A stretch of 40,259 nucleotides of DNA, taken from Flavobacteriales bacterium. GTDB lineage: Bacteria > Bacteroidota > Bacteroidia > Flavobacteriales > TMED113. The notes below the pieces were generated by a model that did no database searches, was not told the origin of the DNA, and saw only the letters and a program-made list of their open reading frames with translations. The DNA lies in assembly GCA_002718895.1 (NCBI GenBank), contig PBGD01000004.1, positions 1 to 40,259 of the forward strand, written 5' to 3'. Shown here piece after piece: positions 7,467 to 22,110 of this stretch. The position numbers and the translations under genes were made by a program. Numbering within the stretch: position 1 is the first letter of the stretch; each line of letters opens with the position of its first letter.

Positions 7467-9356
7467 TTATTTTTGTTCTATAAGTTTTTCTATACAATGT
7501 ATAATTGATTTTTTGTCAAAACCACATTCTTTACGTTGTTCTTCTTGAGATCCGTGTTCAATAAATTTGTCAGGAACTCCAAATCTAAAAGTTTTATTAA
7601 TATAATTATAATCACTTTTAAATTCCATTATAGCTGACCCCATACCACCATTTAAACAGCCATCTTCAATAGTGAAAATAGTTTTATATTTTTTTAATAT
7701 TCTATGAAGAAGCTCATAATCTAAGGGTTTTAAAAATCTAATGTCATAATGCCCAATATTAATGTTTTTAGATTTAAATTCATCCGTAATTTCTATAATC
7801 ATATTTCCAATATGTCCAATTGAAATAATAGCAATTTCATCTCCCTCATTAATTATTTGACCTTGACCCACTTTTAACTCTTTAAAGGGTGCTCTCCAAT
7901 TTTCTTTTATTCCTTTGCCACGAGGATATCTTATCGCAAATGGTTTTTTTGTTACTTGAGCAGTATACATTAAATTACGTAATTCTAATTCATTTAATGG
8001 TGCAGCAATAATCATATTTGGAATGCAACGCAAATAAGCTAAATCAAATACACCTTGATGTGTTGCTCCATCTTCACCAACAAGTCCTGCTCTATCTAAA
8101 CAAAAAATTACATGTAAATTTTGTATAGCTACATCATGAATTAATTGGTCATAACCTCTTTGTAAAAATGTAGAATAAATATTACAAAAGGGGATTAAAC
8201 CTTGGGCAGCTAATCCAGCAGCAAAAGTTACAGCATGTTGTTCCGCGATGCCTACATCAAATGCCCTTTCTGGCATCTCTTCCATCATATATTTTAAAGA
8301 AGAACCGGAGGGCATGGCTGGGGTAATGCCAACTATTTTTTTATTTTTTTTTGCTAATTCAATTATTGATAATCCAAATACATCCTGATATTTTGTGTAT
8401 TTATTTTGTGTATTTAGTGATATATTTATTTTGCCAGAATCTTTATCAAATAAACCAGGTGCGTGCCATTTAGTTTGATTTTTTTCCGCTAAATTATATC
8501 CTTTTCCCTTTGTGGTAAGACAATGTAAAATTTTTGGTCCAGGTATATTTTTTAAATCTCTTAGTGTTGATTCTAGTTGCTCGAGATTATGCCCATCTAT
8601 TGGGCCAAAATATCTAAAATTAAGTGACTCAAAGTAATTACTGTGTTTAAGCAAAATGCCCTTTAGTGCGTTTTCGACTTTTTTCACAATATTCTTTGTG
8701 CTATCACCAATCTTACTTAATTTACTTAATAAGTCCCAGATTTCATTTCGCATCTTATTATAAGTCTTGGAAGTACTAATTTTAAGCAAGTAATCTTTTA
8801 ATGCACCAACGTTTGGGTCAATCGACATACAATTATCATTAAGAATTACAATTAAATTAGAATTTTCAATTCCTGCATGATTAAGAGCTTCAAATGCTTG
8901 TCCCCCCGTTAAAGCACCATCGCCAATAACAGCTATATGTTGCTTGTCATTTTTATTTTGTAATCTTGATGCAATTGACATACCTAGACAAGCTCCAATT
9001 GATGTTGATGAATGTCCTACACCAAAAGTATCATATTCGCTTTCTTGTATTTTCGGAAATCCACTAATTCCATTTTTTTTTCTATTTGTATGAAATACAT
9101 CTCTTCGGCCTGTGAGTATCTTATGCCCATACGCTTGGTGACCCACATCCCAAACTATTAAATCTTTAGGTGTTTCAAAAACATAATGGAGAGCTACAGT
9201 TAGTTCTATTACCCCAAGACTGGCCCCAAAGTGTCCGCCATTTTTTGAAACAACATCAATGATAAATTCTCTAAGTTCCTTGCAGACTTGTGGAAGTTGT
9301 GTTTTGTTTAACAACTTTAAATCGGCAGGAGAATTAATGTTTTTAAGTAGAATCAT
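7467..9356 (-). CDS. dxs: 1-deoxy-D-xylulose-5-phosphate synthase
   Basis: Thiamine-diphosphate enzyme joining pyruvate and glyceraldehyde 3-phosphate to make DXP, the entry to MEP-pathway isoprenoids and a precursor for PLP (PdxA) and thiamine. It has 629 residues from the ATG at 9356. GGHFGASLG (His42), the ThDP motif starting GDGALTGG (145-152) and closing at LNDN, and the catalytic Glu in GIAEQHAVTFAAG are all present, followed by the transketolase C-terminal domain. The open frame extends 46 residues further upstream, but that piece is hydrophobic, overlaps asnS and is absent from the family, so the ATG at 9356 is chosen. It is divergent from asnS. Confidence 0.96.
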   Translation of the reverse strand: MILLKNINSPADLKLLNKTQLPQVCKELREFIIDVVSKNGGHFGASLGVIELTVALHYVFETPKDLIVWDVGHQAYGHKILTGRRDVFHTNRKKNGISGFPKIQESEYDTFGVGHSSTSIGACLGMSIASRLQNKNDKQHIAVIGDGALTGGQAFEALNHAGIENSNLIVILNDNCMSIDPNVGALKDYLLKISTSKTYNKMRNEIWDLLSKLSKIGDSTKNIVKKVENALKGILLKHSNYFESLNFRYFGPIDGHNLEQLESTLRDLKNIPGPKILHCLTTKGKGYNLAEKNQTKWHAPGLFDKDSGKINISLNTQNKYTKYQDVFGLSIIELAKKNKKIVGITPAMPSGSSLKYMMEEMPERAFDVGIAEQHAVTFAAGLAAQGLIPFCNIYSTFLQRGYDQLIHDVAIQNLHVIFCLDRAGLVGEDGATHQGVFDLAYLRCIPNMIIAAPLNELELRNLMYTAQVTKKPFAIRYPRGKGIKENWRAPFKELKVGQGQIINEGDEIAIISIGHIGNMIIEITDEFKSKNINIGHYDIRFLKPLDYELLHRILKKYKTIFTIEDGCLNGGMGSAIMEFKSDYNYINKTFRFGVPDKFIEHGSQEEQRKECGFDKKSIIHCIEKLIEQK

Positions 9357-16928: not shown

Positions 16929-17744
16929 ATGAATACAAAGTTTATTCTTATATTATTATTTATCGTTTGCTCTTTAAAATCACAAGAGTATATTCAAATC
17001 AATCGTCCGGATATTAATATTAGAATGTTACCAACTACTTCATCACCAATAGTTGGACACGCATTTAACAATGAAATATATATAATAAATGGTGAAAATG
17101 ACAAATGGTTTAGTGTAACTCTTCCCTCTGGTGAATCAAGATGGATTTATAAAAGACTTGCTAAAAGAGTGCCATTTAATAATGATGATTTTTCTGCACC
17201 AAATATTGCTGAAGTACAAAAAGAAATATCCATTGCTGAATATAAAGCCTTGAAGAATACAAATAATGAATCTATTGAAGATTTGAATAAAGATCAAATA
17301 AATAAATTATTATTTGATAGATATGTGTTGATTGTGCTACAAAAGTATAATATACAACCAGCCAGTTTTAATAGAATCAATTCAGAAGAATATAACAGCA
17401 AGTCTATTTTGAGTCAGCCAATTTCGGAATACTTGGTAAGTGTTACACATGTCGATTATGATCTATTTAAAATAGATTTTGCAAATTTTTATATTCAAAC
17501 TAAAAGATGTTTTAAATTGGGTAAAGCACTGGATGCTATGATATATATATACAAAGAAGATGATCAAATTTTTCAAAGGCTCTGCTTTGAACAAAGTTAT
17601 GGTAAAGGATTTGAAAATTGCTATACAATTAAAAACATATTTGAATCTGTTCTAGAAGAACCTAATTTAACAGCATTAACAAATGATGGAAAAATTAAGA
17701 AAACAGATCTTATTCTAAGAGAAACAATTTTAGATTTAGATTGA
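16929..17744 (+). CDS. Exported SH3-domain protein of unknown function
   Basis: Protein of 271 residues. Residues 1-18 form a signal peptide (ILILLFIVCSLKSQ). Residues about 20-80 are a bacterial SH3 (SH3b) domain, with NIRMLPTTSSPIVG, the KWFSV strand and SRWIYKRL. The remaining 190 residues, rich in Asp, Asn and Lys, match no family I recognise; they contain three Cys (in RCFKLG, RLCFEQ and ENCYTI) that could form a disulfide. SH3b domains often bind peptidoglycan or peptides, so a cell-wall role is possible but not shown. The gene is divergent from the lysyl-oxidase operon across a 174-base region and overlaps the convergent YwaF-type gene by 9 bases. CAATTTTG near 16878-16885 is a near match to a -7 box. 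Confidence 0.75.
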   Translation: MNTKFILILLFIVCSLKSQEYIQINRPDINIRMLPTTSSPIVGHAFNNEIYIINGENDKWFSVTLPSGESRWIYKRLAKRVPFNNDDFSAPNIAEVQKEISIAEYKALKNTNNESIEDLNKDQINKLLFDRYVLIVLQKYNIQPASFNRINSEEYNSKSILSQPISEYLVSVTHVDYDLFKIDFANFYIQTKRCFKLGKALDAMIYIYKEDDQIFQRLCFEQSYGKGFENCYTIKNIFESVLEEPNLTALTNDGKIKKTDLILRETILDLD

Positions 17745-18443
17745 TTTTTTGATTTTTGAACAAATAAAATTAATGCAAATCACATGAATCAAGATAGCGA
17801 TTTCAAAAATAAGAATATAATATGGCCAGTCAGCAAAAAAAGAATCACCCCTAGGTATTAGGGGATTATTTGCAATGGGTGGATAAGATAAATACATGTA
17901 GTTGGAATCAAATAAATAATTTGCAAAAAAAACACATAAGACTATAATTTGTAGTTTTAAAAAAGTTTTCCACCACCCATTTTTTTTGGGCCACATCTCA
18001 AAAGCATAAATACCATATAATGGTGCTAAAACTAATCCACCATGACCAATAAAAAAATCTATTTTATGCAATAGATCCCCTCCGTGAGTAAGCTCAGGAG
18101 TTAACAAAGAATGAACAGCTCCAGGCATACCAATAAACAATAACATTTCAAATGCCCATTGTTTTTTTAATAAAAAAAAGTAAATACTCAGAAACCACAT
18201 GATAGAACACAAGTGTAAGGGTAATGAGTCTTTTACAGTCCATATTCCATTAAACATATGTAGCCAATCCATAATAAAAAATTCAGAGATAAATATAATT
18301 GCTAGAGATTTTGTAAGTATGGCTTGACTCTTTTTAGATATTTGTTTCGCTGCAATTAATATAAAGTAAATTACTATAACATTGATAGTATTAAAAATCC
18401 ACCATTCAAGTGAAAAGGGAGTAATAATTTCGTGAGGAATCAT
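17736..18443 (-). CDS. YwaF/TIGR02206 family integral membrane protein
   Basis: Inner-membrane protein of 235 residues with about six to seven hydrophobic segments and no signal peptide cleavage site. Family hallmarks are LPLHLCSIMWFLS near residue 75, LTPELTHGGDLLHKIDFFIGHG near 113-134 (His-rich, in the membrane), and the end motif NYMYLSYPP followed by WPYYILIFE. The family function is not established. The start ATG at 18443 gives the expected short N terminus before the first helix. It overlaps the SH3 gene by 9 bases at the 3' end. Upstream, a strong hairpin at 18479-18506 insulates it from the WxxGxW pair, so it must have its own promoter, which I do not see clearly. Confidence 0.85.
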   Translation of the reverse strand: MIPHEIITPFSLEWWIFNTINVIVIYFILIAAKQISKKSQAILTKSLAIIFISEFFIMDWLHMFNGIWTVKDSLPLHLCSIMWFLSIYFFLLKKQWAFEMLLFIGMPGAVHSLLTPELTHGGDLLHKIDFFIGHGGLVLAPLYGIYAFEMWPKKNGWWKTFLKLQIIVLCVFFANYLFDSNYMYLSYPPIANNPLIPRGDSFFADWPYYILIFEIAILIHVICINFICSKIKKSI

Positions 18444-18478: not shown

Positions 18479-18506
18479 AAAAAGAGAGTGATGTCACTCT
18501 CTTTTT
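18479..18506 (-). terminator. Strong intrinsic terminator after the WxxGxW pair
   Basis: A 13-base perfect inverted repeat (AAAAAGAGAGTGA and TCACTCTCTTTTT) around a 2-base centre. Read on the minus strand it ends in a run of nine T, so it terminates transcription arriving from the gene at 18541-18819. It could work in both directions. Confidence 0.85.
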
Positions 18507-18540
18507 AATTAAATAAAAAAAAACTAATAATTGAACTAAT

Positions 18541-18819
18541 TTATGCTTTTTGACGTTTCATCATTTTTCTTCTAAAAATCTCAGATTTTTGTTGAAATGA
18601 TTTTTCTTCAAAACTCCAGTGGCCCTTTTTCCACATTCTTTTTCCATCTGTTGTAGTTTCCCAGTGGCCATTTACCCACATTTTAGTAGGTGTATTTAGT
18701 TTCTGTACTATTTGATTGTTAATTGTTGATTGATCATCTATTAATTTTTGACCAAATGTTATATTAGAGAACAATAGCAATGTTATTGTCATCAGTTTAA
18801 GTTGATTTATTTTTTTCAT
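18541..18819 (-). CDS. Small exported WxxGxW-repeat protein
   Basis: Protein of 92 residues with a signal peptide (residues 1-23, ending NITFGQ). The mature part carries two aromatic repeats, MWVNGHWE and MWKKGHWS, of the WxxGxW (YXWV) type, then a basic Lys/Arg/Gln-rich tail. Such repeats occur in short exported proteins of Bacteria whose role is unknown. It is the second gene of a pair: it starts 26 bases after the related gene at 18846-19184 and is closed by a strong terminator. The shared N-terminal pattern (MK-x-x-NQ) and repeats point to duplication. Confidence 0.78.
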   Translation of the reverse strand: MKKINQLKLMTITLLLFSNITFGQKLIDDQSTINNQIVQKLNTPTKMWVNGHWETTTDGKRMWKKGHWSFEEKSFQQKSEIFRRKMMKRQKA

Positions 18820-18845: not shown

Positions 18846-19184
18846 TTAAGCGTAAAGGTTCATCCATTTATTAAGGGCAATTTCTTTCCAGTATCCTTCA
18901 GTCCATACCCATCCTTTTGAGTTTTTAGTCCATTTGCCATTTATAAAGACGTATCCAATTTTTTTAGTTGCCCAATGACCACTTACCCATATATATTGAT
19001 TATTTTCAATTTTCCATTGCCCTTCGATCCACATTAGTGATCTTTTTTGAAGTGTTTGTTTAACAATTGTTTCAGGAGTTTCTAATTTTTCAGCCAAAAC
19101 AGGTCCTTGATTTTGTGCAGTAGAGATTGACATGGAGCATAGTACTATTATTCCTATAGCAACGATTTGGTTAAAATTTTTCAT
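18846..19184 (-). CDS. Small exported WxxGxW-repeat protein
   Basis: Protein of 112 residues with a signal peptide (residues 1-23, ending SMSISTAQ). Four aromatic repeats follow: LMWIEGQWK, YIWVSGHWA, YVFINGKWT and WVWTEGYWK, spaced about 15-18 residues apart, probably forming a beta sheet with stacked Trp. Function unknown; a periplasmic or outer-membrane location is inferred from the signal. It lies upstream of a two-repeat paralogue. The 5' region has a near-consensus sigma-54 promoter about 50-65 bases before the ATG, so expression may depend on RpoN and an activator responding to some condition. Confidence 0.8.
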   Translation of the reverse strand: MKNFNQIVAIGIIVLCSMSISTAQNQGPVLAEKLETPETIVKQTLQKRSLMWIEGQWKIENNQYIWVSGHWATKKIGYVFINGKWTKNSKGWVWTEGYWKEIALNKWMNLYA

Positions 19185-19235
19185 ATTCTTTTATTTTTCT
19201 AGTTAAACTTTTTTGTTCACATCCACCATGTATAA

Positions 19236-19252
19236 AACAAATGCCGTGCCAA
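19236..19252 (-). promoter_or_regulatory. Candidate sigma-54 (-24/-12) promoter of the WxxGxW pair
   Basis: On the minus strand the site reads TTGGCACGGCATTTGTT. Against the sigma-54 consensus TGGCACG-N4-TTGCW it matches all seven -24 positions and four of five -12 positions; the one deviation is GT instead of GC at -12. Transcription would start near 19225, about 40 bases before the ATG at 19184. It is a G+C island in very A+T-rich intergenic DNA, and a T7A8 tract (19262-19276) lies just upstream. Confidence 0.5.
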
Positions 19253-19297
19253 ACTTTAATATTTTTTTAAAAAAAACTTAATCAAATCTGTTAAATA

Positions 19298-19338: not shown

Positions 19339-19364
19339 TTTTTATGAATAGAAATTCATAAAAA
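19339..19364. repeat. 11-base inverted repeat in the sucA promoter
   Basis: TTTTTATGAAT (19339-19349) and ATTCATAAAAA (19354-19364) are perfect arms around AGAA. The repeat ends two bases before the proximal -7 box and covers the -33 region, a position suited to an operator for the 2-oxoglutarate dehydrogenase genes. It is not followed by a T run on either strand, which argues against a terminator. Confidence 0.45.
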
Positions 19365-19389: not shown

Positions 19390-22110
19390 ATGGATAAGTA
19401 CTCGTTTTTAGGTAGTTTACATATTTCTTTTTATGACAAACTGTATAACCAGTATCAAAAAGATCCTGATTCAATTGACACTCATTGGCGTAGTTTCTTT
19501 CAAGGTTATGAATTTGCAAGTGAGCCATATGAGCCCCTAAAGAATGAACTTCCAATTAAGATTTCTAAAGAATTTCAAGTTATATCATTAATTGAAGATT
19601 TTCGTAAAAGAGGGCATTTATTTACTAAAACAAACCCAGTTCGTGAAAGAAGAGTTTATTCACCAAAATTAGATTTTAAAAATTTTGAATTAAATAATGA
19701 AGATCTTCAAACTATTTTCCAAGCAGGAAATGAAGTGGGCCTTGGTCCTACAACTCTTTCGCATATTCTTATTCATTTAGAGTCTGTTTATTGTCAGTCT
19801 ATCGGTGTAGAGTATATATATATAAGAGAAAAAAATGAAGTAGAGTGGATTAAAAAATTTATTCATAAAAATAATAATCAACCAGAATTCAACAATTTGC
19901 AAAAAAAAATCATTTTAGAAAAATTGACAGCATGTGTAAGTTTCGAAAAATTTTTACATAAAAAATACGTTGGTCAAAAACGTTTTTCTATTGAAGGCGC
20001 TGAATCTATTATTCCCTCAATTGATCATATGATAAATAAAGGAGCAGATCAAGGAGTTAAAGAATTTGTATTTGGAATGGCTCACAGAGGGAGACTTAGT
20101 GTATTAGCTAATATTTTTAACAAACCTTTCTCCAGAATGTTTAATGAGTTTGAAGGCGTAATATATGAGGATGATGAATTTGATGGGGATGTAAAATATC
20201 ATCTTGGATACAATTGTAAAAAACAAGTATTAAATGGGGGGCAAGTTGAAATTAGTTTGGCACCTAATCCATCTCATTTAGAAGCAGTTGGCCCTGTTGT
20301 CCAAGGGATAGCTAGATCCAAAATTGATAAAAAATATAGTGGCAATAGTTCGAAATTAATTCCCGTTTTAATTCATGGAGATGCAGCAATTGCTGGACAG
20401 GGTGTTGTGTATGAATTAATACAAATGTCCCAACTTGATGGCTATTCTACAGGCGGAACTATTCATATAGTTATAAATAATCAAGTAGGGTTTACCACAA
20501 ACTACCTTGATGGAAGATCAAGTACTTATTGTACTGATGTAGCAAAGACCATTTTATCTCCTGTATTACATGTTAATGGTGATGATGTGGAGGCGGTGAT
20601 GCATACAATAGATTTTGCTGTTGCCTATAGACAACAATTTAAAAAAGATGTATTTATTGATCTACTTTGCTATAGAAAATATGGTCATAATGAAGGAGAT
20701 GAACCAAAGTTTACTCAACCTAACTTATATAAGTTAATAGAAAAACATTTAAACCCACAAAAAATATATGTTCAAAAATTATTAAATGAAAAAAGTATTT
20801 CAGAGGGTGAAATTCAAAATATAGAAAATGAATTTTTAACAATTTTGGAAGACCATTACCAGAAAGCTAAAGAAAGAAAAAAAACTACTATTATATCCAT
20901 TGTTAAAGATAATTGGCAAGGCCTCAATAAGGCAAAGCCATTAGATTTTTTGTTAGAGGTCGATACTAAATTTAACAAATCCAATCTAATAGAAATTGGA
21001 AAAAAAATTTGTGAATTACCTAATGATCATAATTTTTATAAAAAAACTAAAAAATTATTTAATGATAGGCTAAAAATGCTTGAAGGAGAGGGTAGGCTAG
21101 ATTGGGGTATGGCTGAATTATTAGCATATGGCACACTATTAGCGGAGGGGGTTCCAATAAGAATTTCAGGTCAAGATGTTGAAAGGGGTACTTTTTCCCA
21201 TCGGCATGCAATTATTAAAAGTGAAAATAGTGAAACAAAGGTAAATATTTTCAATTCCTTAAATTCTCAGAACACTGAATTGAAAATTTACAACTCCTTT
21301 TTATCTGAGTATGCTGTACTGGGGTTTGAATATGGTTATTCAGCAGCTAAACCACATGGATTAACAATTTGGGAAGCGCAATTTGGCGATTTTTGTAATG
21401 GAGCTCAGATTATTATTGATCAATATATTTCTTCAGCTGAAGAAAAATGGAATTTACAAAATGGGTTAGTATTATATTTGCCTCATGGTTACGAAGGTCA
21501 AGGGGCAGAGCACTCAAGTGCTAGAATGGAAAGGTTTCTACAATTATGTGCTCAAAATAATATGCAAATTATAAACTGCACTACGCCATCTAATCTTTAT
21601 CACATGCTAAGACGACAAATGAAAAGAACATTTAGAAAACCTCTGGTCTTATTTTCACCTAAAAGTTTATTAAGGCATCCTAAATGTATTTCTACACTTT
21701 CTGATTTAAGTGAAGGTTCTTTTTTAGAAGTAATTGATGATAAAAAAACACATCATGAAAAAATAAAAACTTTGGTGTTTACAAGTGGAAAGCTTTATTA
21801 TGAATTAGATAAAAAGAGAGACTCTTTAAAAGATTGTTTAACTGCAATCATAAGGATTGAACAATTATATCCTTTTCCAAAAAGAAAACTTGATACAATA
21901 ATTAATAATTATAAAAAAGCAAATAAATATATTTGGGTACAAGAAGAACCAAAAAATATGGGCCCTTGGTTTCATGTAATGGATCATTTTAGATCACTTA
22001 AATTAAAAATAGAGTTAATTTCTCGAGAAGAAAGTGCTTCCCCTGCAAGTGGTTCTAGTAGTAGGTATCACGAAAGACAAGAGAAAATTATAAACAAAGT
22101 ATTTAAATAA
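19390..22110 (+). CDS. sucA: 2-oxoglutarate dehydrogenase E1 component
   Basis: Thiamine-diphosphate decarboxylase of the TCA cycle; it passes the succinyl group to the lipoyl arm of SucB. The product is 906 residues from the ATG at 19390; an in-frame TTG at 19372 is rejected because it falls in the promoter box. The N terminus has the E1o signature (FLGSLHISFYDKLYNQY, then DTHWRSFF), followed by FGMAHRGRLSVLANI, the ThDP/Mg region HGDAAIAGQGVVYE with INNQVGFTT, and the transketolase-like C-terminal half with GHGYEGQGAEHSSAR-type sequence (here PHGYEGQGAEHSSAR). sucB starts 10 bases later, forming an operon. No E3 (lpd) gene is in the window. Confidence 0.97.
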   Translation: MDKYSFLGSLHISFYDKLYNQYQKDPDSIDTHWRSFFQGYEFASEPYEPLKNELPIKISKEFQVISLIEDFRKRGHLFTKTNPVRERRVYSPKLDFKNFELNNEDLQTIFQAGNEVGLGPTTLSHILIHLESVYCQSIGVEYIYIREKNEVEWIKKFIHKNNNQPEFNNLQKKIILEKLTACVSFEKFLHKKYVGQKRFSIEGAESIIPSIDHMINKGADQGVKEFVFGMAHRGRLSVLANIFNKPFSRMFNEFEGVIYEDDEFDGDVKYHLGYNCKKQVLNGGQVEISLAPNPSHLEAVGPVVQGIARSKIDKKYSGNSSKLIPVLIHGDAAIAGQGVVYELIQMSQLDGYSTGGTIHIVINNQVGFTTNYLDGRSSTYCTDVAKTILSPVLHVNGDDVEAVMHTIDFAVAYRQQFKKDVFIDLLCYRKYGHNEGDEPKFTQPNLYKLIEKHLNPQKIYVQKLLNEKSISEGEIQNIENEFLTILEDHYQKAKERKKTTIISIVKDNWQGLNKAKPLDFLLEVDTKFNKSNLIEIGKKICELPNDHNFYKKTKKLFNDRLKMLEGEGRLDWGMAELLAYGTLLAEGVPIRISGQDVERGTFSHRHAIIKSENSETKVNIFNSLNSQNTELKIYNSFLSEYAVLGFEYGYSAAKPHGLTIWEAQFGDFCNGAQIIIDQYISSAEEKWNLQNGLVLYLPHGYEGQGAEHSSARMERFLQLCAQNNMQIINCTTPSNLYHMLRRQMKRTFRKPLVLFSPKSLLRHPKCISTLSDLSEGSFLEVIDDKKTHHEKIKTLVFTSGKLYYELDKKRDSLKDCLTAIIRIEQLYPFPKRKLDTIINNYKKANKYIWVQEEPKNMGPWFHVMDHFRSLKLKIELISREESASPASGSSSRYHERQEKIINKVFK

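Follow-up and report, generated by a model that had tools for sequence, protein, structure and literature searches.

Promoters read by sigma-54 (RpoN) are canonically described by the Barrios consensus TGGCAC-N5-TTGCW, in which the G of the -12 element is followed by C. In enterobacteria, pspA and pspG are envelope-stress genes. Their promoters, such as pspA TGGCACGCAAATTGTATT, combine a near-perfect -24 element with TTGT at -12 (PMC3844500) and, together with that of hydN, are the T exceptions among the ChIP-mapped intergenic sites of Salmonella, in which C follows the -12 G in about 25 of 29 cases by our own count (PMC3844500). In the phylum and order of the DNA studied here, a sigma-54 envelope and chaperone regulon (the SM4 regulon) has been mapped in Flavobacterium psychrophilum by RNA-seq of 5' ends, and one of its promoters was mutagenised in a reporter (PMC9723704). 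As described in the main text of that report, its -24/-12 promoters serve chaperones (dnaK and groES among the targets with mapped transcription starts), exported proteins, a gliding operon and a regulatory RNA, and they form two main co-expression clusters, one of chaperones and one of gliding, exported and RNA targets. The published selection of targets does not name WxxGxW genes, and the main text does not discuss the -12 base, residue 378 of RpoN or enhancer classes (PMC9723704). An earlier note on the present DNA had held sigma-54 regulons to be little known in this phylum; given the F. psychrophilum regulon, the promoter described below is not the first evidence for RpoN there.

On the minus strand, positions 19253–19233 of the window (the whole stretch of 40,259 nucleotides that was analysed) read TTTGGCACGGCATTTGTTTTA, which contains the interval 19236–19252 singled out in the earlier note. 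We propose that this is, very probably, a functional and conserved sigma-54 promoter of a transcript carrying two WxxGxW genes (Table 1). The -24 GG lies at 19250–19249 and the -12 G at 19238, ten bases apart and in a TTGGCAC context, with T as the next base; the orientation, spacing and GT that had been ascribed to the site are all correct on this strand. The site is 51 nt from the ATG at 19184 of gene 1. It thus resembles the canonical promoter in its -24 TGGCAC, its GG-N10-G spacing, its TTG at -12, its distance from a start codon and the presence of rpoN in the genome, and it departs from it in the base after the -12 G, which is T here and T or A in relatives. The same combination occurs at pspA and pspG, but there the T is an exception within its own regulon and the downstream genes are unrelated.

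Table 1. Features of the window that bear on the putative promoter, with the basis for each.
Feature	Position	Strand	Basis or remark
rpoN, 484 aa	10892..12346	+	AID, CBD and DBD domains; RpoN box ARRTVAKYRE exact
Inverted repeat GAGAGTGA-TG-TCACTCTC between runs of A and T	18480..18508	-	read from sequence
Gene 2 (92 aa, exported, related to gene 1)	18541..18819	-	26 nt downstream of gene 1; orthologue in G001 has its own sigma-54 site
Gene 1 (112 aa, exported, WxxGxW repeats)	18846..19184	-	PF12779, E 6.6e-8; signal peptide-like N-terminus by eye
Predicted transcription start	19225	-	12 nt downstream of -12, leader ~41 nt; from sigma-54 promoter geometry
Putative sigma-54 promoter core TTTGGCACG-GCA-TTTGTTTTA	19233..19253	-	sequence, orthologue conservation, rank 4/713
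Divergent sucA, 2-oxoglutarate dehydrogenase E1	19390..22110	+	bounds far side of promoter region

Gene 1 belongs to the WXXGXW repeat family PF12779, scoring 32.9 bits against a curated cut-off of 18; gene 2 reaches only 10.6 bits. The two genes are probably on the same transcript, and the inverted repeat is likely to be its terminator. We know of no function for PF12779 proteins. At 17736–18443 on the minus strand, the window also encodes a 235-aa protein that matches TMEM164 (PF14808, E 1.7e-42), a family known mainly from eukaryotes. A second gene of the same genome (G000:C30:1354) shares the start MDKYSFLGSL with sucA (19390–22110), and both look like E1 of 2-oxoglutarate dehydrogenase.

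Could such a site have arisen by chance, as an unused 17-mer that contains GC and happens to look like the consensus? Within the window, the site is the sole match to TGGCACGNNNNTTGCW when no more than one mismatch is allowed; loosened to three mismatches, the pattern gives 33 matches against 26.5 expected, which is the level of chance. The genome as searched comprises 1.34 Mb and is about 85% complete. It holds three exact TTGGCACGNNNTTTGYT sites, all with TTTGTT, and none with one mismatch, and the reversed-pattern control has no exact match; at two mismatches there are 14 sites against 6 in that control, a chance-like cloud, of which a few are intergenic and upstream of genes, groES among them. 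One further exact site stands 35 nt before a gene for a reprolysin-like metallopeptidase, which is secreted and carries a type IX sorting tail; the third directly precedes an assembly gap. Pattern matches can also mislead: ten in Flavobacterium, found in the scan of the order, were rejected as promoters because they are one coding stretch (YPLARDLFIIN), and what is conserved in them is protein code.

Ranking, by a genome scan of the kind proposed in the earlier note, places the site near the top. A matrix was built from the dnaK and groES sites of other genomes of the order, with the genome's own groES left out, and scored on its 713 upstream regions. The groES site ranks first (18.2 bits), the window site fourth (15.3), the metallopeptidase fifth and lon seventh; four regions score at least 15 bits, against 0.65 expected from a first-order Markov control. 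The score alone is no proof, because some sites inside genes are also scored high by this matrix.

Further evidence comes from orthologues. Homologues of the WxxGxW genes were found in 10 of 12 genomes of the family, and a readable site precedes the gene-1 orthologue in eight genomes of six genera, our own included. The GG-N10-G core, and with it the -24/-12 spacing on whose conservation the earlier note had staked its proposal, is kept in 8 of the 9 genomes whose upstream region is readable, and again before the gene-2 orthologue. The site takes the form GTTTGGCACGGCATTTGTTTTA in our genome, ..CACAAGATTTGTTTTA in G008 and G001, ..CACGCAATTTGATTCT in G006 and ..CATGACTTTTGTTTAT in G011, and TTTGATTT forms are found in three species of one genus; the columns TTTGGCA, TTTG and then two T are invariant. 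With one sequence per genus, identity is 0.78 at the site versus 0.42 and 0.36 in the flanks. The gene neighbourhoods differ: in G001, gene 2 stands alone beside sucA with a site of its own, and gene 1 lies elsewhere with another. The site is absent before a WxxGxW homologue of 48% identity (L056) and before the paralogues L063 and L065; three paralogue loci whose upstream regions were not cleanly readable (L062, L064, L066) were left out, and one hit was cut by a contig end. Conservation of the core between diverged flanks, in six genera and varied neighbourhoods and also before the orthologue of gene 2, strongly disfavours a chance match, which we regard as most improbable. Together, rank and conservation support the earlier proposal of a sigma-54 promoter before the WxxGxW genes.

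The genes could instead be driven by a sigma-A promoter (TAnnTTTG) or an ECF promoter, with the -24/-12 elements coincidental or the site of another protein. Sigma-A is used by most genes of the phylum, and a second promoter may coexist with a sigma-54 promoter, as reported for remFG-sprCDBF in F. psychrophilum (PMC9723704). However, no TAnnTTTG box is present on the site's strand between the genes, nor in 8 of the 9 orthologous upstream regions; the nearest sigma-A-like box, TAAAGTTTG, is one base too long and overlaps the -24 element. We therefore grant this alternative only a small likelihood, and take RpoN-dependent transcription to be the better account.

The T after the -12 G had been named in the earlier note as the weak point of the site. 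Comparison with chaperone promoters overturns this assessment. In 45 genomes of the order, we anchored the dnaK and groES upstream regions on TGGYAY alone; TTG then lies at a fixed distance in 29 of 29 dnaK and about 90% of groES regions, and the base that follows is A in 76 and 58%, C in 14 and 29%, and T in 10 and 10% of dnaK and groES sites, respectively. Across the wider phylum, the TGGYAY anchor is present in 11 of 30 dnaK regions, ten of which have GG-N10-G, with T next in seven, A in two, G in one and C in none. The remaining 19 regions lack the anchor, so not every lineage uses such a promoter. At the WxxGxW orthologue sites the base is T in four and A in five. Pooled, C follows the -12 G in 13 of 79 Bacteroidota sites versus 25 of 29 in Salmonella (Fisher p 3e-11, a value that is descriptive only because the sequences are related). 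Judged from these sites, Bacteroidota have A or T after the -12 G and rarely C, and GT is a normal state of the phylum. With C in only 14–29% of chaperone promoters in the order and 0 of 10 in the phylum, we consider a GC criterion at -12 invalid here.

A possible cause of the lost preference for C lies in RpoN itself. The window's rpoN, whose presence the earlier note had pointed out, encodes all three sigma-54 domains. In E. coli RpoN, E378 of the helix-turn-helix is implicated by genetics in recognition of the -12 GC (PMC4496707), and crosslinks to promoter DNA form at both E378 and R383 (PMC5505868). The window's MDISTISR aligns to MHESTISR of E. coli, with Ile at the position of E378 and Arg383 kept. 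Members of the family have Ile at position 378, and other sampled Bacteroidota I, V, F or L; Fibrobacteres, Calditrichaeota and Balneolaceae have I, Zixibacteria and Planctomycetota V, and Proteobacteria and Nitrospirae E, a pattern that is a correlation over about 30 genomes. A literature search on residue 378 returned no paper for Bacteroidota. A point against RpoN control is that rpoN was not found in 5 of the 12 family assemblies, although several of these hold a WxxGxW gene with the site; all five, however, are incomplete (52–83%).

Promoters of this type extend well beyond the family. A search of 84,980 species with TTGGCACGNNRTTTGTTTTA gave 108 stretches, with about 60 from Bacteroidota among the 80 listed; most of the sites lie outside genes, 25–95 nt before dnaK, groES, clpB or genes of signal-peptide-like proteins. 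At 41 loci (within L071–L178, e.g. L085:6104-7375) the gene encodes a Flavobacteriaceae protein of about 400 aa, exported and marked by FIFxExGIEFSV, and almost always preceded by a near-identical putative sigma-54 promoter, TTGGCACGYTGTTTGTTTTA; the one member searched had no Pfam match. Other sites precede no gene. In four marine Bacteroidota genomes (L084:2163, L087:3240, and L103 and L115 on the minus strand), such a site is followed by a conserved stretch of about 80 nt that ends in a strong terminator, AAGCCCTGTA...TACAGGGCTT, and then a T run, and is a candidate sigma-54-driven small RNA. Our own genome has TTTGGCATGATACTTGTATTAT at G000:C18 ~8095–8203 (minus strand), followed by a gene-less stretch of about 88 nt whose terminator hairpin spans 20 bp (-27.8 kcal/mol), and genus g4 has such a site after a putative lipoprotein gene (L021/L022 near 1500), with a CCTCCCGG loop; these, too, look like sigma-54-driven small RNAs. 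Rfam holds no family for the candidates. In other Bacteroidota, gene-less sites share a downstream TAGGTTAGTTTTAGGGTTAT and a terminator (L077, L151, L157), or a downstream GCGACAGTTCATCC and a terminator (L114, L174).

The promoters differ in what lies upstream. Within 100 nt before the -24 element, TGNCA words occur in 55 of 56 chaperone promoters of the order (14 expected) and tandem TGNCA pairs in 26 of 56 (0.15 expected). Among the nine WxxGxW promoters, the words occur in one, the level of shuffled sequence, and tandem pairs in none. In the phylum scan, all 11 dnaK promoters carry TGNCA, at a mean of 3.2 copies, as against 4 of 41 promoters of the ~400-aa exported family (7.8 when shuffled). 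The sole word shared by WxxGxW upstream regions is AACAGA, in four of nine, and the signal is weak. A 20-bp palindrome at 19343–19362 was considered as an enhancer and rejected, as it is not conserved in G001. The absence of TGNCA repeats from the window promoter and from other envelope-gene promoters suggests another mode of activation.

The genome that holds this rpoN also encodes two clear activator ATPases, and both types recur across the family. One, near groESL, has GAFTGA, a Fis-type DNA-binding domain and no sensor domain, and is found in nearly all genomes of the family; we infer that the TGNCA words bind this protein. The other, a response-regulator ATPase adjacent to dnaJ (L023, G000:C31), has GSFTSA in place of GAFTGA and ends without a DNA-binding domain, as it does in every family genome examined (L316–L324). 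It may serve window-type promoters from solution, a suggestion to be taken with caution, as the altered loop makes its action on sigma-54 uncertain. Alternatively, the Fis-type ATPase may activate the window promoter from an enhancer that has degenerated, in which case the promoter would be part of the heat-shock response and would not represent a separate envelope class. Its intact GAFTGA, its DNA-binding domain and its near-universal presence in the family speak for this, whereas the near-confinement of TGNCA to chaperone promoters, in the order as in the phylum, speaks against it; we think it less likely than not, though by no means far-fetched. A division into two promoter classes would fit the two co-expression clusters described for F. 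psychrophilum (PMC9723704).

We thus propose that RpoN-RNA polymerase would form a closed complex on the -24 GG and the -12 G, where it would wait for an enhancer-binding ATPase. The T after the -12 G would be tolerated because the RpoN of this lineage lacks Glu378, so that C may no longer be needed. The promoter would belong to the class of envelope and exported proteins without enhancer-like TGNCA repeats, and its activator is for that reason probably one of the two ATPases: the dnaJ-linked response regulator, or the groESL-linked Fis-type protein via an unrecognised site. More broadly, and tentatively, since we rate the combination as plausible but a little short of probable, RpoN lineages with a hydrophobic residue 378, Bacteroidota included, would have shifted from GC to G plus A or T at -12 by co-evolution of sigma factor and promoter, and Bacteroidota would have two promoter classes: one of chaperones with TGNCA enhancers, and one of envelope proteins and small RNAs, enhancer-free and served by the response-regulator ATPase that lacks a DNA-binding domain.

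If this promoter functions as proposed, two small exported proteins can be named as conserved RpoN targets; such control of a PF12779 orthologue group was, to our knowledge, not previously known. Many sigma-54 promoters of Bacteroidota will escape standard matrices that require GC at -12, and residue 378 alone offers a simple possible reason for a -12 element without GC. The division into enhancer-bearing and enhancer-free promoters would also lend sequence support to separate activators for the two clusters, as suggested in the F. psychrophilum report (PMC9723704).
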